A stretch of DNA of 21,104 bases. It comes from a virus. The position numbers and the translations under genes are program-made. The DNA is taken from positions 1-21,104 of the IMG/VR virus record IMGVR_UViG_3300027996_003090, one strand, 5' to 3'. Below the pieces are notes generated by a model. It saw only the letters and a list, made by a program, of their open reading frames with translations. It searched no databases and was not told the DNA's origin. Positions 492-19,396 of the stretch are shown one piece after another; within the stretch, counting starts at the first letter, position 1; each line of letters starts with the position of its first letter.

Positions 492-1430
492 TTATGTTAT
501 GGTCCATGTCATTGTAATGCCCGATGGGATACCTTTAGCCCCACTTGCTGTCCATGTGGCATAAGCACCACCACCTGAAATGCCTGTATATAAATTTAGA
601 TTTGAACTTGATGCATTTATATACCATAAACCTGCTGCAAGTATCGTACCATTATCAGTATATGCTACTATGTCCCCATTTTGTAACGATGTAGTCCTGA
701 TGTCTGTTGGAATATTGTTCAATATGAAATCGACACTATTAGATGTTTCCGTCCAGTTTCCTGGGAGGAATAATGTTACTACTTCTCCAATCCTAGTCCA
801 CCTGCAAGTGATTGAAGGATTGGCATCTACACCAGTAAATGTAGGGCTAAATGTACCTGTCTTATAGTATGTTAAATCACTTTCGCCTAAATTAATACCA
901 TCATCAAGCGTCTTAACGCCTGCAAATGTCTGTGCCTCAGTGTTAACCAGCCCTGCAACCGTGTCACTCGCAGGTGCGATATACTGATCGGCTCCTCGTG
1001 TTTCGACTACCGCTGCTGCGGTGGTTCCAATCGAGGTCCATGTTGGTTCTGCATTTAGGCTGACTGTTCCCGATATGTTAATACTTCCGATTGCTGTTCC
1101 ACTTTCTACAAGTATTTCATCGGCATCGCCTGTTGCCACAGTACTGCCCCATGAAGCAGCTCCTGAATATGTGATAACAGCCTCATTATTTTGGAAGTTT
1201 ATTCCCGCAAACACAAGAGTCATAATTGTACTAGGTGTTTGTGTTGCTCGCAAATTAAATACCATTCGCCATTGGTTATTGCTGTCTGCACTAAAGGTGG
1301 CCGTTGCATAAGATATAGATGTTGCGCCTGTGATATATGAACTAATATCAACTTCCTTAGTAATCTTACTAACACTCTCATAAGGCACTATTGCATTTCC
1401 TGCTTTCAAACCAGCGATCCCGTAAGTCAT
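492..1430 (-). CDS. Second tail fibre / receptor-binding-type protein
   Basis: This 312-residue protein is rich in Ser, Thr, Gly and Asn, with predicted beta structure throughout and no enzyme motif. Residues 1-145 form a beta-rich N-terminal part. Residues 153-182 hold the linker style common in phage fibres, including DTVAGLVNTEAQTFAGVKTL. Residues 187-312 look like a compact C-terminal beta domain beginning YYKTGTFSPTF, a plausible receptor-contacting tip. The start overlaps the stop of the upstream S74 fibre as ATGA and has AAGGAG just upstream, so the two fibres are likely made together by coupled translation. It could be an accessory fibre or a tip protein that attaches to the S74 fibre. 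The fibre role is inferred from composition and position; the ligand is unknown. Confidence 0.7.
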   Translation of the reverse strand: MTYGIAGLKAGNAIVPYESVSKITKEVDISSYITGATSISYATATFSADSNNQWRMVFNLRATQTPSTIMTLVFAGINFQNNEAVITYSGAASWGSTVATGDADEILVESGTAIGSINISGTVSLNAEPTWTSIGTTAAAVVETRGADQYIAPASDTVAGLVNTEAQTFAGVKTLDDGINLGESDLTYYKTGTFSPTFTGVDANPSITCRWTRIGEVVTLFLPGNWTETSNSVDFILNNIPTDIRTTSLQNGDIVAYTDNGTILAAGLWYINASSSNLNLYTGISGGGAYATWTASGAKGIPSGITMTWTIT

Positions 1431-3406
1431 ATTTTTTCTCCTTCAAGTGCCGTTAGGCGTGCTAAGATTGCTTCGATTTGTACGTCTTTTTTTGCTAGTT
1501 CGCTCTCGTGTTTTGTGTTTAGTTCTTGGATTGCTTTCATGGCGATAAATAACAATCCTTTATTATTGATACCCTTGGCCATGAATTCATTTTCAGTACC
1601 TTTGTTGACTAAGAATGTATCCTTGATTACTTCAGGAAAATGCTTCTCTACATCTTGTGCCATTGATCCTATATGGATGTGGTCTAGGTTATCCAAGTAA
1701 GCCCATGTACCTATTGGGATTTGAACAAATCGTTCTAGAACAGATTCAAGAGGTGTTAAATCAGTCTTCATACGTTGGTCGGACAGGTCACTATCATTTG
1801 ATTGATAATTATAAATACCCCCATTACCAGCTACATAAAATCTTGAAGCTGTGGCATCTTCGCATAAGATATAATAATTACCCGTAGATGCACTTGGTGA
1901 GGCGACAGTATAGCTAATATTTAGCCCCCAAGGATCAGAAGCATGGGTGTGTCTTAGTGCATTAGTAAACGATCCACCTGCATTTGTTCCTGTATTCAGT
2001 GCAATTGTACCACCAGCTGCATTATCAATTGTGGCAGCACCATTTATATCAACATTGCCTTGGACGGCCATAACATTAGAACCGCTGAAGATTTCAAATC
2101 TAGCATCATTATTAACGCTGCATTTCAGTATACTTGTTGCATCATTTGAACCTGAACAATCTATTTGTACACCATCATCACCGGTAGCGGTACCAGTGTT
2201 GTCAAACCTTGCTACATAATTCCCTGTATTTGATTTGGAAACTTCGAGGGGATACGCAGGTTCTTTACCTACACCAAGACCGCCATCAATCTCAACATCA
2301 CCAGCAACATCCAAATCATCATTGAAAACCCATGGACCTTCAAGAGTTCTGGCAACAAAAGCCGTAAATGGAGTTACCACCCACCACGGCGATCCTGTGT
2401 CCCACGCAAATGAAACATAGTCAGACGCCTGCCCGATTGTAATCCCAGTTGTATAGTCTTTCCCGTCAAGCCTGAATGCATCTGAACCGTTTTTCAAAAC
2501 ATCAACATAGTAAGGAGTTGATGCATATGCAGCCTGATCTTCAGTGCCTGTTACAGCAACTTCAAGATAGTATCCCGTCGTTCCTGAAGGTGCATTCACA
2601 TCGATTTTTGCAGAGGCACCGCTCATGTCTATGATATATCTGAAGCCATCAGCAAGGTTTGCACCATCGTCTGTATGATCTAGATAAACTGTTGAGATAC
2701 CACCGCCACCGCCCAATGGTAGGAGTGAAGAACCATTGTCAAGGTATGCCTTGTCTTCATCGCTTGCATACAAAAGAGTTGCCTGTTTTCTAGTCAGACC
2801 ACCGAGGTTTGCAATGGTGTTTTTTGGAATTGTGAGCCTGCTTGTATCTGAAGCTGTACCACCTGCGAAGTCTTTTGCAGTTAAGATCTGAGTGCCGTCG
2901 ATAGTAGCAATATCACCTGTTGAAGTCCCACCGACTGAAACACCATCAAGCTGGTTGAGCTCCGTCGCAGTTGACGACAGGGCTACGTCTTCATTTATCT
3001 TTGGAGACGTCAACCGCTTGTTTGTCATGGTCTGAGTGCCGTCGATAGTAGCAATATCGCCTGACGATGAACCGCCGACTGAAACACCATCAAGCTGATT
3101 GAGCTCCGTCGCAGTCGATGCAAGAACGACGTCTTCATTCAGTTTTGGTGAGTTCAACCGCTTGTTTGTCATGGTCTGAGTGCTGTCATCATCGACCATT
3201 GCAGACCATGCACCATTTGAATAATACCGCACCAGTGCAGTTGCAGTATTGTAATAAACATCGCCATTGGCTGCAGCTGATCCCTTTGCACTCACAAATG
3301 CAGCATCACTGGCATATGCTACATAGCTACCTGCAACTGATGTAGTGTTGGTTGTCGGTGTTACAGTTATACCCTCTGCAAGCAGAAGTGTTTTTACGTT
3401 TGTCAT
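1427..3406 (-). CDS. Tail fibre with C-terminal peptidase S74 intramolecular chaperone
   Basis: This 659-residue fibre or tailspike has a beta-rich shaft and a self-cleaving chaperone. Residues 74-169 are two 48-residue repeats containing NKRL.SPK and ATELNQLDGV, a motif frequent in phage fibres. Residues 235-350 and 385-530 look like beta domains. From residue 542 the sequence matches peptidase S74: SDQRMK gives the Ser542/Lys547 pair, followed by a GSMAQDV segment and a C-terminal coiled-coil-like stretch (about 620-659). In this family the domain drives trimer folding and is then cut off at the Ser, which here would remove 118 residues. The start has AAAGGA nearby, and the gene lies 3 bases after the upstream gene. 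The protein probably forms a trimer at the tail tip. The S74 call is strong; the shaft fold is inferred. Confidence 0.88.
   Translation of the reverse strand: MTNVKTLLLAEGITVTPTTNTTSVAGSYVAYASDAAFVSAKGSAAANGDVYYNTATALVRYYSNGAWSAMVDDDSTQTMTNKRLNSPKLNEDVVLASTATELNQLDGVSVGGSSSGDIATIDGTQTMTNKRLTSPKINEDVALSSTATELNQLDGVSVGGTSTGDIATIDGTQILTAKDFAGGTASDTSRLTIPKNTIANLGGLTRKQATLLYASDEDKAYLDNGSSLLPLGGGGGISTVYLDHTDDGANLADGFRYIIDMSGASAKIDVNAPSGTTGYYLEVAVTGTEDQAAYASTPYYVDVLKNGSDAFRLDGKDYTTGITIGQASDYVSFAWDTGSPWWVVTPFTAFVARTLEGPWVFNDDLDVAGDVEIDGGLGVGKEPAYPLEVSKSNTGNYVARFDNTGTATGDDGVQIDCSGSNDATSILKCSVNNDARFEIFSGSNVMAVQGNVDINGAATIDNAAGGTIALNTGTNAGGSFTNALRHTHASDPWGLNISYTVASPSASTGNYYILCEDATASRFYVAGNGGIYNYQSNDSDLSDQRMKTDLTPLESVLERFVQIPIGTWAYLDNLDHIHIGSMAQDVEKHFPEVIKDTFLVNKGTENEFMAKGINNKGLLFIAMKAIQELNTKHESELAKKDVQIEAILARLTALEGEKI
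2900..3187 (-). repeat. Two tandem 144-bp coding repeats in the tail fibre
   Basis: Residues 74-121 and 122-169 of the S74 fibre align without gaps and differ at few positions. The same stretch (gagtgccgtcgatagtagca) appears in the DNA 144 bases apart, near 2888 and 3032. A third, broken unit starts at residue 170 (DGTQILTAKDF). The high DNA identity suggests recent duplication or ongoing recombination, which would change shaft length. Confidence 0.85.
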
Positions 3407-3409
3407 TTT

Positions 3410-3886
3410 CTAAATCCTTTCATATCCAAAAACCTGAAAAGCAATCGGATGGTCTGCATAAGAATCCTGCCTCGTTCCGTTCCATGGAGCGGGATAGTCA
3501 AATATCATGTTGATGCTATGATCCAGTGTTTCAGTATATCCTGTTGCACTCATTAAGAGGTGATATTCTGTTGATGCATAGATCCATTGTTTGGAAAAAT
3601 CAAACGTGACCCAGCCAAGCCATTTTGCACCAGTCTCAAATGTAGGATCAAGATTCTTGCACAATATTATATCTGAATCCCATGAAAATGTAGGTGATCC
3701 AACGGAATCTGTTGCAGTCAACTTGACACGCTCGCCTGTAAATGAGCCGTCAAAATACATTACAACCCTGATGTTGGATATTTGTCTGGGCGTTGAATCG
3801 TTTGTAAATGATCCCAGATGAACAGGGTTTGTTGAACCGAGCATCGGTTGTACAAATAATGTTTCTGAAAAGTTTTTTATACTCAT
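3410..3886 (-). CDS. Small beta-rich tail-tip protein of unknown function
   Basis: This 158-residue protein has alternating hydrophobic and polar strands and many aromatic residues (for example KWLGWVTFDF and KQWIYASTEYHLLMSA). No signal peptide, membrane segment or catalytic motif is visible. The pattern fits a single beta-sandwich, possibly of carbohydrate-binding type, but I do not recognise the family. It lies between the large tail-tip protein (8 bases upstream) and the S74 fibre (3 bases downstream) and has AGGGG before its ATG. That position suggests a component joining the fibre to the tail tip, or an accessory glycan-binding module. This role comes from context only. Confidence 0.6.
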   Translation of the reverse strand: MSIKNFSETLFVQPMLGSTNPVHLGSFTNDSTPRQISNIRVVMYFDGSFTGERVKLTATDSVGSPTFSWDSDIILCKNLDPTFETGAKWLGWVTFDFSKQWIYASTEYHLLMSATGYTETLDHSINMIFDYPAPWNGTRQDSYADHPIAFQVFGYERI

Positions 3887-3894
3887 GAAAACCC

Positions 3895-5991
3895 CTATGA
3901 TACATATTCAACTGTTCTAGCCTTGACTGTCACCTTTGAAATTGATTTTGTCACATCAGTTACAAGAAGCAATACCCAGTTGCTACCATCCTTGTATGAA
4001 GTAGGAAGTCTGCTTGATGTTACTTTTATATATTCGCCAGGTGCAAGGCTGTACCATTTTACAGTTAGATCCATCTGATATATTATTTTTGGCTGTTGTG
4101 CTATCTGCCAATATTTATCAATCTTGACTTCACCAGTTTTTCTTGTACCTGTATTTTGAATGGAAGCCTTGTTTTCCAAATTGTGTTTTCTAAAAACACG
4201 CTCGCTTATATAGTCTATATTGACATTTGATTGAAAAGTCAGGTTTTCGGCTTCTGGATGCTTGAACTCCAACTGGTTTATTATATCTTGATAATCTATT
4301 GATGAAGTCAATGAATCACTGAGTATTTCAGATTCATCGATTTCATATATGGTGCTTGGGGGGTTCAGACTATCAATAGTAGAATAAATATCGCCCAAAT
4401 CAATATCAAGTGAATCGGTTTTTGATATTTGGAGAAATTTTAATTTTGGTGCTAAAAGCAATGCAATGTATTCATCATATGTTTTGAAATCTGTTTCCTT
4501 ACCAAAAGGCAATTGCATGAATTCAGGCTGAATATTGCTTGATGTTATCGAAGTGTTAGAATATCCCGATTTTTGAAGCAAATCTTCTGCTACAACTTCC
4601 AAGGTAGGTGTTGTTGCTTCAAAAAGTGTAAAATAATGGGGTTTGTCTGGTCGCAATCCCGAAGTACCTGCTCCTCTAGTGAATTTATGAAGATAATTCC
4701 CGCCTGTTGTTAAAGTAGATGTTATTGAAGCCGTTGAAAGAAGTATGGGAGTAAGAAAAGATGAACCCGGAACTATTTCAATATTGCCTGCAATTGCATA
4801 GGGCTTTTCTCTAACTACCGCCGTTACCGTTTCAGTTGGATATGAATTAGTAATAGTAATATTTGCAGTTGTATAATTCACACTTGTAATTGTTTGATGT
4901 ATCACGCCAGTTGTTGACCATGTAATTTTGAGATAACAAAAAACGGAAACTCTGTGTATGTCTACAGCTTGTAGATGTATCACTCTGTGTGTTGTGGATC
5001 CAGATGAACCCGTGAAAGTTACCGTATCCGAAACACCACCAAGTGAAAATGTGAAATTTACATTGTCTGAATCAAGAACTCCTGTAGTCCTTCCCAGTAT
5101 CAATGTTTTATTTTTACCTGATCCTGAAAGATCTGAATAATCAGAATCCACAAGGGTTGCCTTCGGAAACCATCCACTTGGGTTTTCATCTACAGTTTCC
5201 AGATTCCTTCCGCCAATTATATTTGTAATAGCATTGGGCTTGCTTGATCCATATACAAAAGGAATGGGCTTGGCTATCATGTTTCTTTGTGTTTCTGGAT
5301 AAATTGAATCATTTATATAATTTTCTTCATAACTGTCATTGAACAGACATTGCTTCCTTAGTTTTCTGAAATTGTCTTTCAAGCTGATATTAAAAGTATT
5401 ATTATTAAGGGTTGCTTTTACAATAGTTCCGTAAAATGCAAGCTCAAATTCAGAATTGAAGCCAAACCAGACAAATATTTCCTTGTTTATAAACGATATC
5501 TGGATATTTTCTGCATCATCATTTCGCTTGAAATACTGATCGTAATGCCTGTCTATGTTTGTAAATGAAATACCAGTAGAACTGCTATAGATCCTTACTT
5601 CCAGAATATCACCGATTGATGATGTAGTTGCAGGTGACGTTGATATCCTTGGAAGCCATTCAGCTACAGTCGTTATTGATCCAGTTGGATCAGTTTCATC
5701 AAGGTATTTTGTTTGTGAATTGGTGGCAAAAATATAAAAATATGCAATCACCGGATTTGTTTCAGATGGTGCCGCTATCAATGTAACCGTCAAAATACTT
5801 GTTGATTCAACCCATGTAAATGATCTTGAAACACCATCTTCTTCAATTAAAACTGGCTTATAATCGAATGTCATGTCATAGGTGGTTCCAGAAACAAGAC
5901 TTAGATTGTCTGTAATATCATAGCCTGGCTTGATCCTGACAAGTATATCCCTATTGGAATATTGTTTTGAAGCTTCATCGATAATCGTCAT
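3895..5991 (-). CDS. Large tail-tip / baseplate hub-like protein
   Basis: This protein of 698 residues has mixed beta structure and no recognisable enzyme motif. A segment near residues 238-254 (AKPIPFVYGSSKP) resembles the 'G..iPivYG' motif of siphovirus and related tail-tip proteins. The N-terminal 220 residues contain several beta strands and aromatic patches. The last 130 residues (NQLEFKHPEAEN through VTVKARTVEYV) look like the final domain of hub proteins, which contact tail tube and fibre. Synteny supports the call: tape measure, distal tail, this gene, fibres. A TTG just before the ATG would add one Met, but AGAGG stands seven bases before the ATG, which I prefer. The ATG overlaps the upstream stop as TGATG. 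Whether it is the central hub or a peripheral baseplate component cannot be decided by eye. Confidence 0.65.
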   Translation of the reverse strand: MTIIDEASKQYSNRDILVRIKPGYDITDNLSLVSGTTYDMTFDYKPVLIEEDGVSRSFTWVESTSILTVTLIAAPSETNPVIAYFYIFATNSQTKYLDETDPTGSITTVAEWLPRISTSPATTSSIGDILEVRIYSSSTGISFTNIDRHYDQYFKRNDDAENIQISFINKEIFVWFGFNSEFELAFYGTIVKATLNNNTFNISLKDNFRKLRKQCLFNDSYEENYINDSIYPETQRNMIAKPIPFVYGSSKPNAITNIIGGRNLETVDENPSGWFPKATLVDSDYSDLSGSGKNKTLILGRTTGVLDSDNVNFTFSLGGVSDTVTFTGSSGSTTHRVIHLQAVDIHRVSVFCYLKITWSTTGVIHQTITSVNYTTANITITNSYPTETVTAVVREKPYAIAGNIEIVPGSSFLTPILLSTASITSTLTTGGNYLHKFTRGAGTSGLRPDKPHYFTLFEATTPTLEVVAEDLLQKSGYSNTSITSSNIQPEFMQLPFGKETDFKTYDEYIALLLAPKLKFLQISKTDSLDIDLGDIYSTIDSLNPPSTIYEIDESEILSDSLTSSIDYQDIINQLEFKHPEAENLTFQSNVNIDYISERVFRKHNLENKASIQNTGTRKTGEVKIDKYWQIAQQPKIIYQMDLTVKWYSLAPGEYIKVTSSRLPTSYKDGSNWVLLLVTDVTKSISKVTVKARTVEYVS

Positions 5992-6785
5992 CAAATAACC
6001 TCTTTCAGTTCAAAAGCCATGCTGAAAACATCGTTTGAAAAGTTTGTCAACTGCGGTTCTGATGCAAACTTAACCAGTCGTGTAAGCTCCCAGTCATATG
6101 TTGACCTTTGCAGTGCAGGATCAAGTGACACAAATAGAGGGCGTGTTATGCCGAATTCATAAAAAGTCTGTTCAATGGCCCTTCTGTCACTTCCAGTCAT
6201 GTATCCAAGACCCAGGCCTGTAAATGTTTTGTAGCTTTGCCGTTCTTCAGCATATTCGGTACCATCGATCGATCTTGCAATAATGCTTGGGTCGATTTGA
6301 CGCATGGCATAACCTCGGTTTATATCACGCTCCTCAATTTGAGTATGGTCGCCTAGATAAATATATCCAACCTCGTTTCGCACGGGATTTGAGGTGTCAC
6401 TCACATCGAGACGCCAATATCTGTAACCGCCTGTTGAATTGTCAAGTTGCTTGAAAGCTCCAAAGTCGGATGGTGTTATTGTTTCTTCAAGAGCAGGGCT
6501 TGTCCATGATGCAGCAATGTTTTCAGCCTTGATTGTGATTGTTGAATCTTCAGAGATAGTGAATATATCACCGAGCTTGCCAGCAATGCCTACAAACGAG
6601 ATAGGAGCTGGAAAACCGAAGTCCCATTCAAGTGACCATGAGTTGGAAGTAGGTCGCCACAGCTTGCTTCTGATAGTGTCTATTGCATTGGAAAATGGAT
6701 AGCCTGACGCCGTTGATGAAACTGTTGTATTTGAGACTGTAATATGCTGGTTGTCAAAGAACCTTACTAGTTTTGATACGCTCAT
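5991..6785 (-). CDS. Distal-tail-type protein with N-terminal discoidin-like domain
   Basis: This protein has 264 residues. Residues about 25-145 look like an F5/8 type C (discoidin-like) beta-sandwich: an early GYPFSNAID.....LWRP segment, WSLEWDFG, an ITIKAEN strand and GYRYWRLDVSD near the end are typical of the fold. Residues 150-264 form a second domain with RPLFVSLDP and a terminal FSMAFELKEVI strand, plausibly the tube-ring-binding part. It directly follows the tape measure gene, where siphoviruses encode the distal tail protein that closes the tube and docks the hub. The start overlaps the tape measure stop (TAATG) with GGAGG upstream. The glycan-binding reading of the first domain is inferred from the fold pattern. 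Confidence is good for a tail-tip protein and moderate for distal tail specifically. Confidence 0.68.
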   Translation of the reverse strand: MSVSKLVRFFDNQHITVSNTTVSSTASGYPFSNAIDTIRSKLWRPTSNSWSLEWDFGFPAPISFVGIAGKLGDIFTISEDSTITIKAENIAASWTSPALEETITPSDFGAFKQLDNSTGGYRYWRLDVSDTSNPVRNEVGYIYLGDHTQIEERDINRGYAMRQIDPSIIARSIDGTEYAEERQSYKTFTGLGLGYMTGSDRRAIEQTFYEFGITRPLFVSLDPALQRSTYDWELTRLVKFASEPQLTNFSNDVFSMAFELKEVI

Positions 6786-9328: not shown

Positions 9329-9897
9329 TCACCTCTTTTTTGCTTGCTTTTTTGCATCCTCAACTTTGATTTCATCAAGAGTTGAATCAATCACTACAAA
9401 AATATCTGATTTCAGATATGGAAGGTCATCAAATGAACTGTGAAACCCTATGCCATTCAATCGCTTTCGCTGGATATATTCTTGAACGAATGACGTAAAT
9501 TCATGCTCGTTTGTATCCTTCCATGCAATTGCTCTTGTAGCCCGTCTGGCAAGCTCAACTACTTTTTTCCGGTATTGCCACCGATACCGAGCAGGGAAGC
9601 AGTTGCACAATCCATTTGCACTTTCTGACAATCCATATCTTCATCAAGTTCATCAAAGGTCTTGTATGTCTTGTGGCCTCTTGTAAGATTGACTTCCTTG
9701 TAATGTTTGATCGATGCCTTCAATAGCTTTATTACTACTTCAGGTTTCTTGAAAGCATTTTCTGCAGCTTTTTTATTGCCTGCAAGATCCATTACATTGA
9801 TACCAATTTGATCCAACATCTCCAGACGTTCAATATTCTTTGCCACGTTCATTGTCACGTGACCATCGAAACCCTTAAATGTAAGCTTTAAATCCAT
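9329..9897 (-). CDS. Tail assembly chaperone fusion (G-T type) made by -1 frameshifting
   Basis: This predicted 189-residue product reads 112 codons of the short chaperone frame, slips back one base on A_AAA_AAG, and continues for 77 codons as VVELARRATR to KKQAKKR. In lambda-like phages the equivalent gpGT fusion binds the tape measure and recruits tail tube subunits, and the ratio of short to fused product matters for tail assembly. The downstream frame has no good start or ribosome binding site of its own; its open stretch reaches 9631 but overlaps coding sequence of the first frame by 73 bases, as expected for a -1 extension. The C-terminal part is charged and helical. It stops 3 bases before the tape measure ATG. 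The frameshift is inferred from sequence, but the context is textbook. Confidence 0.85.
9559..9897 (-). CDS. Tail assembly chaperone, short (G-type) product
   Basis: This 112-residue protein ends at TAG directly after the slippery AAA AAG codons. It is small, partly helical and acidic near the C-terminus (TFDELDEDMD). By position, between tail tube and tape measure genes, it corresponds to lambda gpG-type chaperones. I place the start at the ATG giving MDLKLTFKGF, which has CAGGGA ten bases upstream, rather than at an in-frame TTG at 9927 that would add ten residues and has no clear ribosome binding site. It is the majority product; the fused longer form shares its N-terminus. There is little sequence conservation in this family, so the call rests on synteny, size and the frameshift signal. 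Confidence 0.83.
   Translation of the reverse strand: MDLKLTFKGFDGHVTMNVAKNIERLEMLDQIGINVMDLAGNKKAAENAFKKPEVVIKLLKASIKHYKEVNLTRGHKTYKTFDELDEDMDCQKVQMDCATASLLGIGGNTGKK
9562..9568 (-). promoter_or_regulatory. -1 programmed ribosomal frameshift site, A_AAA_AAG
   Basis: On the coding strand the zero-frame codons are GGA AAA AAG TAG, so the heptamer A AAA AAG fits the X_XXY_YYZ rule and is among the most efficient slippery sequences in bacteria. The zero-frame stop follows immediately, and the -1 frame stays open to the tape measure gene. A weak imperfect stem (CTTG.CC pairing with GG....CAAG, about 9530-9552) lies downstream and might stimulate slippage. No strong pseudoknot is evident by eye. 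Confidence 0.88.
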
Positions 9898-9930
9898 TTT
9901 TTTTATTCCCTGTAATTTAGTGTGCAAAAA

Positions 9931-11466: not shown

Positions 11467-11913
11467 TTATTCAAAATATTCAGCAGAAATAGCTGATACA
11501 ATGGTTATTACCTTTCGATCATCTTCAATATACTCTATGCCTTGATCGGTGACATATCTCGCTCGAATCACCTGAACACCATTCAGAACACTTATTTTTT
11601 GCAATTCTTTCCAAACCAGAAAAGCATCTTCATAAAGCGCCTTTTCCTGCGTGGCCCTTTCGATTGGATCAGTTTCATGGGCTGTATATAAATTACTCAG
11701 AGTAAGATTATATGCCCTGTCAATCGTAAGTTGAACACCATCAAGATATCTCTCTGTGTTCTCACCACCTGCGATCCCTAGGGAATATCCCTTTTCAAGC
11801 CTGATTAAATCATTGTCGCCTATCTCATATGCATCAGCAAGCCTGTGATAAGCAGTCAACTTGCTTTCAATGAGCGTTATCAGACCATCATATACCAAAG
11901 ATCCATTTGACAT
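11467..11913 (-). CDS. Putative tail terminator / neck protein
   Basis: This 148-residue protein has an N-terminal helix (DGLITLIESKLT), a central segment with 'YSLGIAGGENTERYLDGVQLTIDRAY', helices around residues 80-110 and closing strands with VQVIRARYVTD and RKVITIVSAISAEYFE. The helix-strand-helix-strand order and size fit tail terminator proteins (lambda gpU or HK97-type), which cap the tail tube and dock it to the head. Its place between the connector protein and the tail tube gene supports this. The start overlaps the upstream stop as TAATG with AGGT just before it. The fold assignment is by pattern and position only. Confidence 0.6.
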   Translation of the reverse strand: MSNGSLVYDGLITLIESKLTAYHRLADAYEIGDNDLIRLEKGYSLGIAGGENTERYLDGVQLTIDRAYNLTLSNLYTAHETDPIERATQEKALYEDAFLVWKELQKISVLNGVQVIRARYVTDQGIEYIEDDRKVITIVSAISAEYFE

Positions 11914-12734
11914 TATCGACCTACTCTCATCATTGCTGGTGTTTTCTCAGACCTATCATAGTTCCCATTTAGGTTCTGGTCTATACCCCAGTCGCCACTA
12001 TTCATTGATTCAGTGTAATACTTCCTTGCATCGGCACGGTCTTCTGCATATGAAATTCCGAGACCTGCGAATATTATTTCAGCCGTTTTATGCACGCATG
12101 GTATTTCATAGCGCTTTGAATCAAGGATTTGATCTTTTGACAAAATCATGTTTCGACTTTTCAAATCGGTGATGATTGCATCACTTGCAGACACCTCCTG
12201 AGTAGTCCAGTCGGCTTTGCCTGCTTTGAACCGTGTCATGATTGATGAATTATTGAACAGCGGGTATTGTGAAAACAAGGCATTGTCATCACAGAATCGA
12301 TTTCCAATATAGTTGATTACAAGTGCAGAATCGCTTGATGCATCGTATCCAAAACGCATCCAATAAACACTATATACCTTGGTATCTGCGAGCTCTGTTA
12401 TATCAGAAGAATCGTCTTCTTGATCCCAGCCCTCGTCCTTGTCAACTGTAAAATTGATATTGCCTGAAACCTCGAGAGTATTTGTGCCTTTAGTATAATC
12501 AATTATATCTGCAACAGACACCCATGCGTTGTTGTACCAAATATCAATTGTCAGTGTCCCAGCCTGATCGTTTGCCGTCTCGATTTCAAAAAACTTGTGA
12601 TTGAAAGGAAAAAACGAGCTCACATAAAGATATGTTTTGCAATCCCATGCTCCAGTCGCAGTGAATGGATTTGACCATGGGATAGTGCGGTCTATGATTG
12701 TGCCTGCATCATCTATAAAATATCTGTCAAACAT
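11913..12734 (-). CDS. Head-tail connector protein with an N-terminal beta-sandwich domain
   Basis: This 273-residue protein has two parts. Residues about 1-148 are beta-rich and aromatic (GTLTIDIWYNNAWVSVADII, VYWMRFGYD) and look like a beta-sandwich virion domain. Residues about 170-245 are helical: ASDAIITDLKSRNMILSKDQ, then IPCVHKTAEIIFAGLG and EDRADARKYYTESMN. That pattern of helices with a conserved-looking A..i...l..lg region matches gp6-like head-tail adaptors that sit under the portal. The C-terminus is DQNLNGNYDRSEK, Asn/Asp rich and possibly a flexible or ion-binding tail. The gene starts the neck module. Most adaptors are only 90-120 residues, so the added N-terminal domain is unusual. 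A fibre or decoration role for the beta domain is inferred. Confidence 0.6.
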   Translation of the reverse strand: MFDRYFIDDAGTIIDRTIPWSNPFTATGAWDCKTYLYVSSFFPFNHKFFEIETANDQAGTLTIDIWYNNAWVSVADIIDYTKGTNTLEVSGNINFTVDKDEGWDQEDDSSDITELADTKVYSVYWMRFGYDASSDSALVINYIGNRFCDDNALFSQYPLFNNSSIMTRFKAGKADWTTQEVSASDAIITDLKSRNMILSKDQILDSKRYEIPCVHKTAEIIFAGLGISYAEDRADARKYYTESMNSGDWGIDQNLNGNYDRSEKTPAMMRVGR

Positions 12735-14132: not shown

Positions 14133-15206
14133 TCAGTGTTCATACCACCAGAAATCAACGTCCATGTATCCAGCTTGAACTGCCTTTTTTACCAGTTTGA
14201 ATAAATATATGGTATTTTGATCGCCAACTATTTCATGGTTGAGACCTGGAGCAACGCCTGTTGCATTTTTTCCAGAACCCATTTTTGAAGCCCAAATTTG
14301 AGTGCCATCGGTTGTTACCGTCGGCCCTGCATATGCGACAAGCTCGGCAGTATTGGGACTATCACCTCGATTATTGACAGTAGTTACCTGAGTTCCGTTT
14401 ACACTGACTGTACCATCTCTAAAAATATATGCTTCAAACTCAACATTGGCATATAACGATACTTTTGCATGTATACGGGTATCTGTATCGGGCGTTATAA
14501 ACATGAAATAAACTGTTTCATCAGCACCACCAACAAAATCTACAAAATTCTTATAGAAATAATGATTTCCTTCATGCACTTCATGATGATCTGGATCAAG
14601 GACTACTGGGCCATTGAATTCTGAATCCAACTCTATATTTCTGTAAAGCCCGCCTTTGCCTTTGCCTGTTATTACAGCCTTGACAAGTCTTGAATCGTCC
14701 TCGCCTGAAATATTATCTTCAATCCTATGGCTTGATGCAAGTGCATTGCCTTTTTTTATCACTGCATGAAGTCTAAATTCTGTTTGTGCTATACCACCAT
14801 TTGTATATGTTATTCGCATATATTGCATTGACGGTTGTATGCTGAATGTTTTGCCAGTGCTTGCAGGTATTGTATAAGTGTCCTCAGTATCCCAGAAGAT
14901 GCTTTCAACACCATTTACAGAGTGACCTTGTTCGATAACAAGACCATCTATTGCACTTGCCTGATCGGCATAAACAGTTACAAAAATAATGCTTGCCTGC
15001 AATACGTCTGTTGCCGTGCCTGGGAAAACTTCATCGATTCCCAAAGGCTCATGGCTTGTATTGTTTTCATCAATCACACCATTGATGCTTATATCAACGC
15101 CATCACTTGCGAAAGGGGTTACCTTCAGCTGATTGTTGATCGATTCAATGTTATGAATCTTTCCAGTATGGTCTACATATAGAGTGTTTGGATCAAGACT
15201 AGACAT
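14133..15206 (-). CDS. Two-domain beta-rich virion structural protein
   Basis: This protein has 357 residues. Residues about 55-150 form one beta domain (ASIIFVTVYADQ, YTIPASTGKTFSIQPSMQYM, RITYTNGGIAQTEFRLHAVI). Residues about 175-357 form another (DETVYFMFITPDTDTRIHAK, EFEAYIFRDGTVSVNGT, GPTVTTDGTQ, YMDVDFWWYEH). From memory, both patterns recur in phage virion proteins of several lineages, often next to each other and sometimes as separate genes. The start lies inside the end of the 735-residue gene, with an 8-base overlap and GAGGTGG upstream, so translation is probably coupled and the products may form one assembly. Position between capsid and neck favours a head-associated decoration or fibre. 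No catalytic residues are recognisable. Confidence 0.6.
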   Translation of the reverse strand: MSSLDPNTLYVDHTGKIHNIESINNQLKVTPFASDGVDISINGVIDENNTSHEPLGIDEVFPGTATDVLQASIIFVTVYADQASAIDGLVIEQGHSVNGVESIFWDTEDTYTIPASTGKTFSIQPSMQYMRITYTNGGIAQTEFRLHAVIKKGNALASSHRIEDNISGEDDSRLVKAVITGKGKGGLYRNIELDSEFNGPVVLDPDHHEVHEGNHYFYKNFVDFVGGADETVYFMFITPDTDTRIHAKVSLYANVEFEAYIFRDGTVSVNGTQVTTVNNRGDSPNTAELVAYAGPTVTTDGTQIWASKMGSGKNATGVAPGLNHEIVGDQNTIYLFKLVKKAVQAGYMDVDFWWYEH

Positions 15207-17406
15207 CTACCACCTCAAAAGACAGCAAGCTTGAAAAATCAGCTTCGGATGCATTTGGAAGTGAAAACTTGTACCTCTGTTTTCCTACCTTCATTTCCCA
15301 GAATTGATTTTCAGCCTGGACGTAAATATCAGCTGTAAACCAACCATTAACATCGGTAGTGCCCAATGTTTCCCATTCATATATATGCAATGCAGTGCTG
15401 TTTATAAACCCTTGAAAAGGTCTTATTTGCACTACTTCACTTGCAACCGTACCATCATGGTCATATATATACCCGTCAAAACTGCAAACTGTTAAAACAG
15501 GAATGATAGGAGCAAGGTTGTATGTTATCGTCATCACATCAATAGATGGTGTAGTCAAACCATCATCACTGTGCAGAAATATTTTTGCTGTCGAGGCACA
15601 TTGAGTTGTTATCAGATCACTAATATCACTCACAAGCTCGGCGATGGTATTCGATTCTGCATACGTTCCGTTGCTGTCTTCAGCACTACCACCTGTCACC
15701 CATCGATCCTGTGCTCCACAAAGAGCCGTAAATTTAACTAGATCACTTCCAACTTCGGTAACGGTTGTAGATATGTTTTCCCAGTCAGAAGTTCTGAAGG
15801 TTGAATTTGGAACCAGTGCAGGGTTGGTTGTTGGATATATTTGGGATGTATAGGTTAAAGTCAATAAGTCTGCTGACATCTGGACAGTACCATCATCAAA
15901 AACAATATCCACATTTATATTGTCAGTTGCTGGCAGAGAGATGATATTGGATAATATTTCAGCCTCAGAATTTGATTGTGCATAGGTACCATCACTAGAC
16001 ACCCAACCGGAATTATAATATAAATCATTAATTACATAGTGCGGTATGTTTGCTTCGGTTGTTGAAAAGCTGGTGAACGTCTGTATTTCTCCAGCTCCTG
16101 AATAGGAGAATTGTGGTAGCTCTATTTTAGATGTTGGATAAACTGCACTGCTGTAAGTGAGTATTAGATTGTCGGATTCCATCAACGAACTGCCATCCCC
16201 GAAAACCAAGTCCACGTTCACTGTGTCCGTCTCTGTAAGGGCAGGTATATTTGTATTAACGTCGGCTTCAGAATTAGCTTGTGCATAGGTACCGTCACTA
16301 GATACCCACGCTGCACCGTTCCAATACTCATCATTTACTATATATCGAGGGCTGTTACCATCGGTTGTGGAAAAAGCGGTATAGTCTGAGATACTTCCTA
16401 GACCTGCAAAACTAAACTGAGGTAGCTCAATCTTAGACTCTATATACTTATATTCCGATAAGATGTACCCCGGAGTGTAGTTAGTAGTATGTTGAACGGT
16501 ATCAAACACTACTACGTCTTCAAAATAGGCATCAGAATTCCAAGTACCCCCTGCATTTGCCCCAACTCGGAAAAGACCTATATCCGAGTTTCTAGTTCCA
16601 GTAGAGATTAAATCGGATAGGGATAGTACTCCATCGATAAAAAGTCTAGTCTCACCACTAGTTAGATCGGTATTTACTTCGAACTCGTAGGTCACTCCTG
16701 AGTTAGGTAACCAAGTATCAGACACATCCAAAATAAGACCACCAGCCTGATCTGTTATGTATAAATGTAGTATTCCTCCACTACCATGATACATCCCTAT
16801 AGAGTTATCTGTCAGATTATGTCCTTCACAAATTACAAACATACCTCGTATTGTTAGTGGGCCTCCAGTATAATTAGGAGTATATTTAAACCTAAGTGTC
16901 AGTGTTTGCTGGCTAGATGCGTTACCTGCTGCGTCATAACTGACGTATTTGGAGGTACCTCCAGTGACATCCAACCGATTACTAACTACACTGGCTCCTC
17001 CGGTGGCGGTACCTGTTAGCACCCCCTCACCATAATTTAAATTGATGTCTGTGGTATACGTGCCAACCGACGTTGAATCAGTAGGTGCTTTGTCTTTTTG
17101 TTGTACTTTCCCTGCTACAAATTCAGCTTTTGTGTTATCGTAAGTAAACCCCGTATCATTCGCAAAATCCTCAGTGAAAGTCTGTCCTGTGGTAGTTATA
17201 AGTTTTTGTCGTACCACCCCAGCAGCAAATTCTGCTTTAGTATTATCATATGTAAAACCTGTATCATCGGCAAAGTCTTCGGTGAAGGTCTGATTAGGAT
17301 TATCTTGAAGCTTGAGTTGAGCTTTGCCGTCTACAAATTCAATGAGGTCTGTATCATATGAATAATTGCTGGCAGTCGTGAATTGATATGTAGTTATTGT
17401 TGTCAT
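15199..17406 (-). CDS. Mosaic fibre/adhesin-like virion protein with LamG-like domain and internal repeats
   Basis: This 735-residue protein is built from modules. Residues 8-110 hold two 36-residue repeats (QTFTEDFADDTGFTYDNTKA and a near copy) plus a degenerate first unit. Residues about 115-312 look like a LamG/concanavalin A-like lectin domain (LTLRFKYTP, YEFEVNTDLTSGETRLFIDG, YFEDVVVFD). Residues 324-425 and 426-526 are two 102-residue repeats opening with SKIELPQFS and containing WVSSDGTYAQ.NSEA; a divergent third copy covers 527-631. Residues 634-735 form a C-terminal beta domain (CSFDGYIYDHDG, DVNGWFTADIYV) like carboxypeptidase-regulatory or Ig-like folds. The start overlaps the previous stop as ATGA. 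Glycan binding at the virion surface is inferred from the LamG-like domain. The LamG region differs in base use from the rest of the window. Confidence 0.65.
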   Translation of the reverse strand: MTTITTYQFTTASNYSYDTDLIEFVDGKAQLKLQDNPNQTFTEDFADDTGFTYDNTKAEFAAGVVRQKLITTTGQTFTEDFANDTGFTYDNTKAEFVAGKVQQKDKAPTDSTSVGTYTTDINLNYGEGVLTGTATGGASVVSNRLDVTGGTSKYVSYDAAGNASSQQTLTLRFKYTPNYTGGPLTIRGMFVICEGHNLTDNSIGMYHGSGGILHLYITDQAGGLILDVSDTWLPNSGVTYEFEVNTDLTSGETRLFIDGVLSLSDLISTGTRNSDIGLFRVGANAGGTWNSDAYFEDVVVFDTVQHTTNYTPGYILSEYKYIESKIELPQFSFAGLGSISDYTAFSTTDGNSPRYIVNDEYWNGAAWVSSDGTYAQANSEADVNTNIPALTETDTVNVDLVFGDGSSLMESDNLILTYSSAVYPTSKIELPQFSYSGAGEIQTFTSFSTTEANIPHYVINDLYYNSGWVSSDGTYAQSNSEAEILSNIISLPATDNINVDIVFDDGTVQMSADLLTLTYTSQIYPTTNPALVPNSTFRTSDWENISTTVTEVGSDLVKFTALCGAQDRWVTGGSAEDSNGTYAESNTIAELVSDISDLITTQCASTAKIFLHSDDGLTTPSIDVMTITYNLAPIIPVLTVCSFDGYIYDHDGTVASEVVQIRPFQGFINSTALHIYEWETLGTTDVNGWFTADIYVQAENQFWEMKVGKQRYKFSLPNASEADFSSLLSFEVVDV
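15829..16437 (-). repeat. Two 102-residue coding repeats in the mosaic protein
   Basis: The unit starts at SKIELPQFS and ends at the next TSKIEL boundary. The two copies share DNA stretches such as ttgtgcataggtacc near 15976 and 16279, so the duplication is fairly recent. A third, much more diverged copy follows at about 15514-15828 and keeps NGTYAESNTIAE and VMTITYN. Confidence 0.8.
17077..17292 (-). repeat. Two 36-residue N-terminal repeats in the mosaic protein
   Basis: QTFTEDFA.DTGFTYDNTKA is repeated with a 108-base period. The protein copies are nearly identical, but many third codon positions differ, so the repeat looks old and held by selection. The sequence YDTDLIEFVDGKAQLK just upstream looks like a further degenerate unit. 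Confidence 0.8.
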
Positions 17407-17774
17407 GAATCGAAAGCCCCCAAAGCATAGATATAAGCCGTTTCAGAAGATACGATAGCCCATAGGTTATTGCTGTTGCCTCTTTTCACTCTCAGCAAAA
17501 AAGGATCTCCAGGCGACAATGGATAGGCATTGGAACCGCCCGCTGTAATCGTATTATCTTCGCCTATCCATATTATACCGCCCGTGTCAAGGTGTTTGAT
17601 GCTTACGGATTCAGCGTCATCAGGCAAATCAATCAATGTTGCCGTTGTAGTTATCAGTGTCCTGACAGCCCCAACAGAGTTGTATCTTGGATCAATTATT
17701 TTTCTGAATACCTGACTGCCTTTTTCTTCAAAGCAGTTTCGATTCAGATCACCAATCGGCGTCAATGACGGCAT
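17403..17774 (-). CDS. Small beta-rich virion protein, first gene after the capsid hairpins
   Basis: This protein has 123 residues. After a short N-terminus (residues 1-33), residues 35-120 look like one beta-sandwich: VRTLITTTATLIDLPDDAES, IIWIGEDNTITAGGSNAYPL, SPGDPFLLRV and LWAIVSSETAYIYALG. This 'IWIG..NT.....G.PL.PG....' pattern recurs in small phage structural proteins of unknown function. It is the first gene downstream of the double hairpin, with GAGGTGA before its ATG, and overlaps the 735-residue gene by four bases, so it may be the base or anchor for that fibre-like protein. The anchor idea is context only. Confidence 0.6.
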   Translation of the reverse strand: MPSLTPIGDLNRNCFEEKGSQVFRKIIDPRYNSVGAVRTLITTTATLIDLPDDAESVSIKHLDTGGIIWIGEDNTITAGGSNAYPLSPGDPFLLRVKRGNSNNLWAIVSSETAYIYALGAFDS

Positions 17775-17800
17775 AGCATCACCTCAAACATCAAACAAAT

Positions 17801-17822
17801 GGAAGGTACCGAAGCACCTTCC
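17801..17822 (-). terminator. Nine-base-pair UUCG hairpin downstream of the capsid genes
   Basis: On the transcribed strand GGAAGGTGC pairs with GTACCTTCC around a TTCG loop, with one G-U pair. The following ATTTGTTTGATG is only moderately U-rich, so termination may be partial. Its place after the capsid genes suggests a partial terminator or a block to 3' decay of the abundant capsid mRNA. Confidence 0.6.
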
Positions 17823-17848
17823 AAACAGGGAATAAAAACCGGATCGTT

Positions 17849-17862
17849 ACTCCCGAAGGAGT
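17849..17862 (-). terminator. Five-base-pair UUCG hairpin touching the stop of the decoration gene
   Basis: ACTCC and GGAGT pair around TTCG, starting at the last base of the TAA stop. A T5 run follows, but ten bases after the stem, so it is not a canonical intrinsic terminator by itself. With the second hairpin 27 bases on, it forms a tandem structure. Confidence 0.45.
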
Positions 17863-18272
17863 TAGAACTTTTTAATTTCCCATAAAAATACCATTTTGCC
17901 AGTCAACAGTGTTTCAGCTTCAATTGAAAACTGAAGCTTCTTTGTAGCTGATACTTTAACAAATCCCTCTGTACCGCCAGTTGTGGCGTTCTCAGGGATG
18001 ATAAAAGAACCTATTGTAAAAGTAGCAACGGGCTCTGAATTCAAAAAAGCGTCGGCAGTTTCATCACTCTCTACAGTCAGAAGCGCTGATCCTCCAGATG
18101 TAGGTGCGGTTGTAACCTTGACACCAACAAGCTTTACAAGCAAGTCATCGGCTGTAGCTGCAGTCATGACGTAATCGGCAATAGCTCCAGTATCTTCATC
18201 AAAATCGTAAGTTGTTTCATAAAATTCAGATGTATTTGAAAATGGTGCTCCAAAACTTCCTGTCTTTAACAT
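17862..18272 (-). CDS. Capsid decoration-like small beta protein
   Basis: This protein has 136 residues. The pattern TYDFDEDTGAIADYVMT, then LLVKLVGVKVTTAPTSGGSA, then a late LTGKMVFLWEI strand resembles a widespread family of small beta-rich virion proteins encoded just after major capsid genes. In those the core reads 'DF..DGGa.g...l.....p....i....v.v...PTSGGSA.......LTAGK'. A capsid decoration or stabilising role is inferred from family position and context. The start is one base after the upstream stop (TGATATG) with AAGGAAG upstream, and the gene ends at the tandem hairpins, making it the last gene of the capsid set. Confidence 0.6.
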   Translation of the reverse strand: MLKTGSFGAPFSNTSEFYETTYDFDEDTGAIADYVMTAATADDLLVKLVGVKVTTAPTSGGSALLTVESDETADAFLNSEPVATFTIGSFIIPENATTGGTEGFVKVSATKKLQFSIEAETLLTGKMVFLWEIKKF

Positions 18273-18529: not shown

Positions 18530-19396
18530 TTATGCTGCACTAGTGACCTTGTAACATTTTTTTGCACCATCAATGCTCAATTTGGCCCCAAAAAGAAGGT
18601 CAACTGACAAGGTATATCCAAACTGCTTGTTACCATGGAGATCTGAAAGCTTGAATTGTGGCTCCGTTTGAGCGGCATAAAGCAAAGCTTCAGGCAAAAA
18701 TGCTATGGATGATCCAGTCAGAGGAGCGCTGTCATCTTCATAGTTGATGAATCCGTAACGTTGCTGGCCCACTTGACCGCTGATCCTTGCACCATCTTCA
18801 AACCCAAACGTATCTGCGATTAAATTATTGTCAGAAAGAAAATCGCTGTAATAGCCAGGTCCCATTAAATTGTACCAAGGGCTTTCCTTTGACCAATGAG
18901 CTTCAGCACAGGCTTGTCGCATGTTTGCCATGATGGTGTTGCTCATTGCTGCAGTTGAGTTGATTGTATGATCAGGGTTTGAGGTGCTTGGTACCATCAA
19001 GGAATACAAGTATGTATTTATTTGACGGCCAACATCGTGCATCATTGCTTTTCTTACGTCAGGATTGCTTGAAGGATCGATGATGCTTTGGATTGAAACA
19101 AGATCATCAAATTCAATAGCAGATACTGCCCGTCTGTCAGCTTTCAAATCCACTTTTGAAGTTGTGATTTTGTTTGTCTCATATGTATCGGCGTCAACGC
19201 CCACTTCTCTGAGATCACTTTGGAGCTCATTTATTTGGGACACACGGACGGTATCACCCTTGAATCTTATTTCACCCTCATACGCTTTTGATACAAGCGA
19301 AGGAAGCAAAAAGGATTCCCTTAGTTCTTGCATGAAAAGAGTTGACCATTTTGTTTGGATTTGGTCTGCAACATCTGTCAAACTTGTTTTCGCCAT
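18530..19396 (-). CDS. Major capsid protein (HK97-fold, P22 coat-like)
   Basis: This protein has 288 residues. It shows features of the HK97-fold coat protein: an N-terminal helix (VADQIQTKWSTLFMQELRES) leading to 'GDTVRVSQI' strands, the ADRRAVSAIEFDDLVSIQS segment (E-loop/spine region), a long spine helix (KAMMHDVGRQINTYLYSLM), and a C-terminal P-domain ending GYTLSVDLLFGAKLSIDGAKKCYKV. Length fits the smaller members of the family. A separate scaffold is encoded immediately upstream and no prohead protease is visible, so cleavage-independent maturation as in P22 is possible; a protease could lie beyond the right edge. GGAG precedes the ATG by nine bases. Confidence 0.85.
   Translation of the reverse strand: MAKTSLTDVADQIQTKWSTLFMQELRESFLLPSLVSKAYEGEIRFKGDTVRVSQINELQSDLREVGVDADTYETNKITTSKVDLKADRRAVSAIEFDDLVSIQSIIDPSSNPDVRKAMMHDVGRQINTYLYSLMVPSTSNPDHTINSTAAMSNTIMANMRQACAEAHWSKESPWYNLMGPGYYSDFLSDNNLIADTFGFEDGARISGQVGQQRYGFINYEDDSAPLTGSSIAFLPEALLYAAQTEPQFKLSDLHGNKQFGYTLSVDLLFGAKLSIDGAKKCYKVTSAA

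Follow-up and report, generated by a model that had tools for sequence, protein, structure and literature searches.

The stretch of viral DNA analyzed here, referred to as the window, comprises the whole of IMG/VR record IMGVR_UViG_3300027996_003090 (21,104 bases), which is a fragment and has linear ends. At positions 15199..17406 it carries, on the minus strand, a single open reading frame (ORF) encoding a 735-amino-acid LamG-repeat protein, which an earlier note made from the sequence had described as a mosaic. Distinct modules were indeed found along this ORF. An N-terminal segment (residues 1-38; 17293..17406) is followed by two 36-amino-acid units (residues 39-74, 17185..17292, and residues 75-110, 17077..17184), a LamG/ConA-like domain (residues 111-312; 16471..17076), three repeats of about 100 amino acids (residues 318-423, 16138..16455; residues 424-526, 15829..16137; and residues 527-637, 15496..15828) and a C-terminal domain that is a putative anchor (residues 638-735; 15202..15495), all on the minus strand. 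The two units are identical at 26 of 30 positions and repeats 1 and 2 at 58 of 101, and repeat 3 shares 21 to 25% identity with either of them; the two 102-residue repeats and one diverged copy reported in the note were thus recovered. The protein is acidic, with 94 Asp and Glu residues and 30 Lys and Arg residues.

Relatives of the window were 49 loci retrieved from viral contigs with a capsid alignment; the window capsid by itself and a neck alignment retrieved three loci each. Homologues of the LamG-repeat gene were found in L002, L039, L046, L057 and L066, the latter retrieved, besides L057 itself, with the part of the gene present in L057. The L039 homologue retrieved itself and L065. When the window protein was compared with whole contigs, matches were obtained in 3 of 33, 1 of 3 and 2 of 2 records. 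The best-conserved parts are the C-terminal domain (60 of 98 residues identical in L057) and the 36-amino-acid units (23 of 30 and 26 of 36 in L066). Lower identities were observed for the LamG domain (85 of 198 in L066) and the repeats of about 100 amino acids (40 of 103, 36 of 99 and 48 of 109 in L057; repeat 3 shares 47 of 109 with the second L057 repeat). The N-terminal segment has identities of 17 of 37 in L002, 15 of 32 in L046 and 15 of 38 in L066.

The earlier note had regarded the N-terminal repeats as old and the 102-residue repeats as recent. The data do not agree with these ages, since the N-terminal pair is the more alike of the two, and the nucleotide identities are 0.78 for the 36-amino-acid pair and 0.60 for the 102-amino-acid pair. 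At identical residues, the same codon was kept in 13 of 26 and 29 of 56 cases, respectively, as compared to a chance fraction of 0.41; orthologues of the window and L002 gave 0.43 (capsid), 0.58 (decoration) and 0.51 (123-amino-acid gene). Because the synonymous sites are near chance, like those of the orthologues, both duplications are old and neither pair is recent, and the proposed recent amplification is not supported. No copy in L057 or L039 comes as close to repeat 1 or 2 (at most 0.36) as these two are to each other, so that an extra repeat of about 100 amino acids looks specific to the line of the window; conversion could also account for the likeness between the copies. The number of modules varies among the relatives, some of which have fewer units or repeats. 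There are three repeats of about 100 amino acids in the window and two each in L057 and L039; two 36-amino-acid units are present in the window, one in L002, L066 and L039, and none in L046 and L065. Among the relatives showing those parts, the second unit and the third repeat occur in the window only.

A structural model was predicted for residues 106-425 from an 11-row alignment. Its predicted local distance difference test (pLDDT) scores, as ten-residue means, were 53-90 in the lectin part (model residues 31-210), 59-86 for the core of repeat 1 (model residues 241-300) and under 50 in the first 30 residues; the ends of the model scored low. The model suggests a ConA-like jelly-roll fold, with VIA Z scores of 15.6-16.8, 164-194 aligned residues and root mean square deviations of 2.5-3.7 among the 50 matches listed. 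Model residues 1-213 (residues 106-318 of the protein) matched domain 4 of AbnA (5hon, Z 16.2), the lectin domain of NanB (2vw1, 16.0) and a pentraxin-like domain (8b55, 16.7), and the fold also matches phage LamG proteins in BFVD. The binding domains of botulinum and tetanus toxins were among the matches, at 7-14% identity, which reflects the shared ConA-like fold only and bears in no way on toxicity. The LamG-like domain claimed in the earlier note thus stands, with a strong fold match for residues 111-312 or thereabouts and a Pfam match to PF13385 below the cut-off (E 0.007). ConA-like folds include glycanases, and one slot protein of a relative (see below) matches a hyaluronidase PHROG, so that a catalytic domain degrading a surface polymer of the host was considered. 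We regard this as highly improbable, because no enzyme family was matched in Pfam or PHROGs and the fold matches observed are binding domains of larger proteins.

The long genes of the window are encoded on the minus strand and follow the siphovirus order, namely, the major capsid gene (18530..19396; phrog_283, E 8.8e-13), a 76-amino-acid gene, a 136-amino-acid putative head decoration gene (17862..18272), genes for 123 (17403..17774), 735 (LamG-repeat), 357 and 450 amino acids, a 273-amino-acid "neck" gene (11913..12734), a 507-amino-acid tail-tube-like gene, the tape measure gene, tail genes and a gene for an S74-chaperone protein; the labels decoration, neck and tail-tube were assigned from gene position. 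The decoration gene is conserved behind the capsid gene in relatives, and the neck gene is likewise conserved. The succession of capsid, small gene, decoration gene, 123-amino-acid gene and LamG gene is shared by the window, L002 (capsid identity 82%; LamG 97 of 262), L066 (capsid 205 of 287; LamG 126 of 272) and L046 (capsid 40%). In L057 the downstream half of the LamG gene is followed by a 432-amino-acid gene, which begins like the 357-amino-acid gene of the window, and then by the neck gene. L057 and L066 stem from the same metagenome and are identical at 110 of 114 amino acids in their overlap. The contigs of L002, L066, L046 and L057 end inside the LamG gene, and the sole complete homologue on one contig is that of L039 (635 amino acids; 327-2234, on the other strand); the 123-amino-acid gene has no match in L039. 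Module order was kept in these relatives, but the gene was not found throughout the lineage, so that the refutation named in the earlier note (full-length homologues of like architecture across a phage lineage) applies by half. In L065, whose capsid belongs to another family (Pfam GP7, E 3e-18), a LamG-type gene (L065:8456-10228) starts at the same place, behind the capsid gene and a 159-amino-acid gene, and the contig ends there. In L011 a relative of the 357-amino-acid gene directly follows the decoration gene and extends to the contig end.

The region between the decoration and neck genes thus forms a slot of variable content. The capsid-to-neck gap ranged from 613 to 7397 bp in the 26 distinct relatives in which both ends were seen, and none of these 26 carries the LamG gene in the slot. 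As the gene is missing from most closed slots observed, it cannot be essential for the head. This bears on the possibility of a cement or minor capsid protein that stabilizes the head and uses the lectin fold as a structural brick only. Such a role would agree with the place of the gene directly behind the decoration gene region, and sugar binding is not obligatory for ConA-like folds; nevertheless, it is quite unlikely in view of these closed slots that lack the gene (the three relatives that carry it in the slot have open ones) and of the varying number of modules.

A total of 42 slot proteins of at least 150 amino acids were encoded by 19 of the 26 relatives, and none of that size by the other seven; two entries were excluded from this set, L003:4271-4720 as a member of the decoration family and L017:8035-8496 as one of the small-gene family. 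Pfam was matched (E <= 0.001) by at most 8 of the 42. The L039 slot (L039:8572-13070) encodes a glycosyltransferase, a PhyH dioxygenase, a methyltransferase (below the cut-off), a polysaccharide deacetylase and a sugar epimerase, which corresponds to a glycan-modifying cassette, and L036, whose slot is open, has relatives of five L039 slot genes. A 966-amino-acid slot protein of L028 (L028:2347-5244) contains the Major tropism determinant N-terminal domain (Mtd_N, E 9.7e-17), and DUF6385 and F5/8 type C matched one slot protein each. In PHROGs (E <= 1e-5), the slot proteins matched several tail-fibre and virion structural families (best 25 of 34 families). These tail-fibre families, together with BFVD fold matches of the LamG model that include baseplate wedge initiators, could indicate a fibre protein of the tail or tail tip that happens to be encoded next to the head genes. 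We consider this unlikely, as PHROG labels do not fix a position in the virion, head and neck genes delimit the slot, and separate tail genes with the S74-chaperone fibre occupy the opposite end of the window (492-5994).

The left edge of the slot is marked by a terminator-like hairpin behind the decoration gene (17800..17823, minus strand). By one rule, such a hairpin was detected in this place in 18 of 38 loci, with the window included and near copies (e.g., L013 and L014) counted apart, as compared to 14 among 488 ends of other ORFs and 10 among 600 stretches taken at random. The 20 loci that fail the rule include L002, which has a clear hairpin with too few T residues. In the five hairpins that were folded, the stem sequences differ and the pairing is kept. 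Because of this terminator-like structure, the sequences suggest that the head genes are transcriptionally set off from the slot and that its left edge is stable.

A capsid tree was built from 38 of the 49 loci, L066 and the window; copies or near copies (L016, L020, L029, L033, L034, L044 and L051), partial sequences (L054, L055 and L056) and L053 were left out. In its labels, L039 counts as lacking the LamG gene in the slot, and 10 rows are unlabelled. The window groups with L002 and L066 in one clade (100/98), and the adjacent L010 and L012 have closed slots without the LamG gene. L046 is far from this clade, and LamG presence corresponds to two changes, as many as the starred branches force. 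In 257 shared columns of the LamG protein, the window resembles L039 (0.47) and L066 (0.45) more closely than L002 (0.37), with column bootstrap values of 0.997 and 0.987. We do not claim a swap of LamG alleles against the capsid descent, as the approximately unbiased (AU) test leaves a grouping of the window with L002 unrejected (p 0.26).

The earlier note had also argued from base use for a segment acquired from another source and amplified as an adhesin. CTAG occurs exactly seven times between 15990 and 16915, as stated, but 24 times elsewhere and not about 16. The whole window is CTAG-poor (31 sites versus 46.7 expected from shuffles). Seven is the maximum in any 926-base stretch (P 0.035 for 31 sites placed randomly), and in the same kind of scan test 32 of 254 tetramers reach P <= 0.05. 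The LamG gene contains 9 CTAG sites, one of which spans the stop codon, as compared to 3.0 ± 1.7 expected under the codon use of the window; shuffling its own codons gave 4.7 ± 1.9 versus 8 in the gene (P 0.073). Among the homologues, densities per kb were 3.15 in L039, 3.80 in the L002 part, 0.82 in the L057 part and 1.07 in the L066 part. The CTAG excess is thus marginal and weak as a sign of import.

In a leave-one-out codon test of 16 window genes (6 shorter genes were excluded), the LamG gene was the top outlier (G 109 versus 43 ± 9, z 7.2; next 2.8), with z values of 5.8 and 6.7 under other gene sets. The deviation stems from codons for Ser, Gly, Leu and Thr, with TCA and GGC down and AGT, TCC, ACC, TTA and CTA up. 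Codon use is therefore atypical for the window, as the note had held for base use in general, but the GC content (0.408) and that of third codon positions (GC3; 0.323) are ordinary. Among the ORFs of at least 300 codons in the relatives, the z value of the LamG gene ranks 20th of 150; these are mechanical ORFs, some of the top ones probably spurious (e.g., those on the minus strand across the capsid genes of L040 and L043), and the number of true genes ahead of it may be below 19. Capsid, tail-tube and other structural genes of the relatives reach z values of 6-10. A test on plus-strand ORFs from 25 loci showed slot genes, taken as a class, to be a little more atypical than others, without significance (36 versus 148 genes, p 0.088; 22 versus 72 long genes, p 0.066). 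In L039 the LamG homologue is the top codon outlier (z 4.8), as it is by a small margin in L057 (4.4 versus 4.3 for its neighbour), and in L002 it ranks second (2.3). As relatives show outliers of similar size and the homologues are outliers too, base use is weak evidence that neither shows nor excludes import.

A recent import from a source with different base usage, followed by amplification, would be in line with these top ranks in the window, L039 and L057 and with the patchy presence of the gene. We judge it very unlikely, considering the ordinary GC and GC3, the frequency of like-sized outliers in relatives, the fit of the L002 homologue to the codon use of the other window genes (z -0.8), the marginal CTAG excess, which is not common to L057 and L066, and the age of the repeats. 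Of the acquisition proposed earlier, the patchy distribution on the capsid tree, the varying slot content and the L039 copy at another location remain in its favor, whereas the base-usage argument and the recent amplification do not. A cluster of a short motif and a codon outlier in one window should thus be taken as weak evidence of import, as relatives show the same.

Taken together, the LamG-repeat protein is probably an elongated, acidic, beta-rich, glycan-binding appendage of the phage head or neck, encoded by an exchangeable cassette in a variable slot. We infer its location in the virion, its glycan binding and the identity of its anchoring end from the predicted lectin fold, the acidic make-up, the conservation gradient and the place of the gene. 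The protein would be displayed on the head or neck, where the LamG/ConA-like domain would bind glycans on or near the host and the repeats of about 100 amino acids may serve as spacers or as additional binding modules. Attachment to the particle would be through the conserved C-terminal domain, possibly together with the N-terminal segment. The LamG gene with the 123-amino-acid gene, which occupies the same place in L002, L046 and L066, would be exchanged as a cassette in the interval from the decoration gene and its terminator to the neck gene.

Several results weigh against an appendage of this kind. No homologue of the LamG protein was found in 50,697 phage records, from which records very near the window were possibly excluded; in this collection, no match was obtained with the whole protein (E <= 1e-3), the L039 homologue (0.01), the C-terminal domain alone or the LamG domain alone (16471-17064; both E <= 1), nor with the window capsid, the L019 capsid or the neck gene. 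The L039 homologue adjoins the terminase and portal genes, divergent from the terminase and away from the head genes, and the C-terminal domain is not recognizable in it; the claim of a C-terminal anchor is therefore weaker. PF13385 (Laminin_G_3) scored 17.0 bits in the window, 19.7 in L002 and 16.9 in L057, below the cut-off of 27.6, and had no match in L039 or L046. The AlphaFold model of the whole protein, from a 2-row alignment, had a pLDDT of 33, and the second model stops at residue 425, with the C-terminal domain beyond it. Finally, the glycan-modifying genes were found in a single closed slot, that of L039, with homologues in an open one (L036), and with so few slot proteins matching Pfam, the idea of a recognition slot rests on few annotated genes.

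A broader proposal extends this reading to the lineage of uncultured siphoviruses, which would have a slot dedicated to exchange, with the decoration gene and its terminator at one end and the neck gene at the other. Whole recognition cassettes (LamG fibres, Mtd_N-type proteins and glycan-modifying enzymes) would be swapped into it. The LamG cassette would then encode a length-tunable, Hoc-like lectin fibre of the head or neck, and may also be inserted at this position in phages whose capsid is unrelated. We advance this proposal tentatively. If a head or neck appendage is indeed encoded, part of the variation in host recognition in this environmental phage lineage would lie beside the head genes and not at the tail tip alone, and the natural series of none, one or two units and two or three repeats would bear on how fibre make-up affects adsorption.

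Further searches and window features are as follows. The LamG domain weakly matched phrog_15260, of unknown function (E 0.0055 in the window and 0.0015 in L039), and the neck gene had no PHROG match. In viral contigs, the window LamG protein and the tail-tube-like protein retrieved no relative and the L002 fragment retrieved itself only; genome contigs searched with alignment A1 gave 65 pattern stretches and no relative. The 357-amino-acid gene (14133-15206) belongs to phrog_5335 and matched 4 records of the phage collection over partial length. Its C-terminal part is found again in another genomic setting, immediately ahead of the small terminase gene in Vibrio phage VvAW1 and between the genes for terminase and connector in Methylophilales phage MEP301. 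The tape measure gene product matched Pfam TMP_3 with 20.9 bits, under the cut-off. Two small overlapping minus-strand ORFs (9329-9631 and 9559-9927) lie between the tail-tube-like and tape measure genes, with GGAAAAAAG just ahead of the stop of the first, an arrangement that we take to resemble the programmed frameshift of tail-assembly chaperones. No tRNAs were found in the window, Rfam gave nothing at gathering score, and promoter-like sites numbered 24, as compared to 22.3 in shuffles.

Among the matches listed in a mostly open-access literature search, none described a LamG-repeat protein encoded behind the decoration gene of a siphovirus; related arrangements are nevertheless known. Laminin G3/ConA-fold lectin domains occur in phage virion proteins, for which the account in PMC7824862 proposes binding to host-surface glycans. 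The window domain has the same predicted fold, but it scores under the Pfam cut-off, is joined to two kinds of repeats and lies in the slot behind the decoration gene. T4 Hoc and its relatives are described in PMC10385173 as acidic head accessory proteins with a conserved C-terminal domain and a variable number of beta domains. The window protein is likewise acidic, with a conserved C-terminus and repeated domains of variable number, and would also be an accessory of the head; in contrast to the Ig-like domains of Hoc, it combines a ConA-like lectin domain with an unassigned repeat of about 100 amino acids, and a search of PDB sequences with the whole protein returned one weak match (E 0.087), which was not Hoc. 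The neck passage structure proteins of 936 lactococcal siphophages, as presented in PMC6669499, have some 500-900 amino acids, are present in 73 of 113 phages and combine a conserved anchor with exchangeable glycan-binding modules, the anchor being N-terminal, with a BppU-like domain and a coiled-coil fibre. The window protein resembles them in size, in its presence in part of the group, in its exchangeable and predicted glycan-binding modules and in belonging to a siphovirus, and differs in that its best-conserved end is the C-terminus. The earlier mosaic reading was right in outline, apart from its composition argument and repeat ages, and the protein appears to be an adhesin-like phage protein in an exchange slot. 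By analogy, our best reading is that it works like Hoc or like the neck proteins that bear carbohydrate-binding modules.

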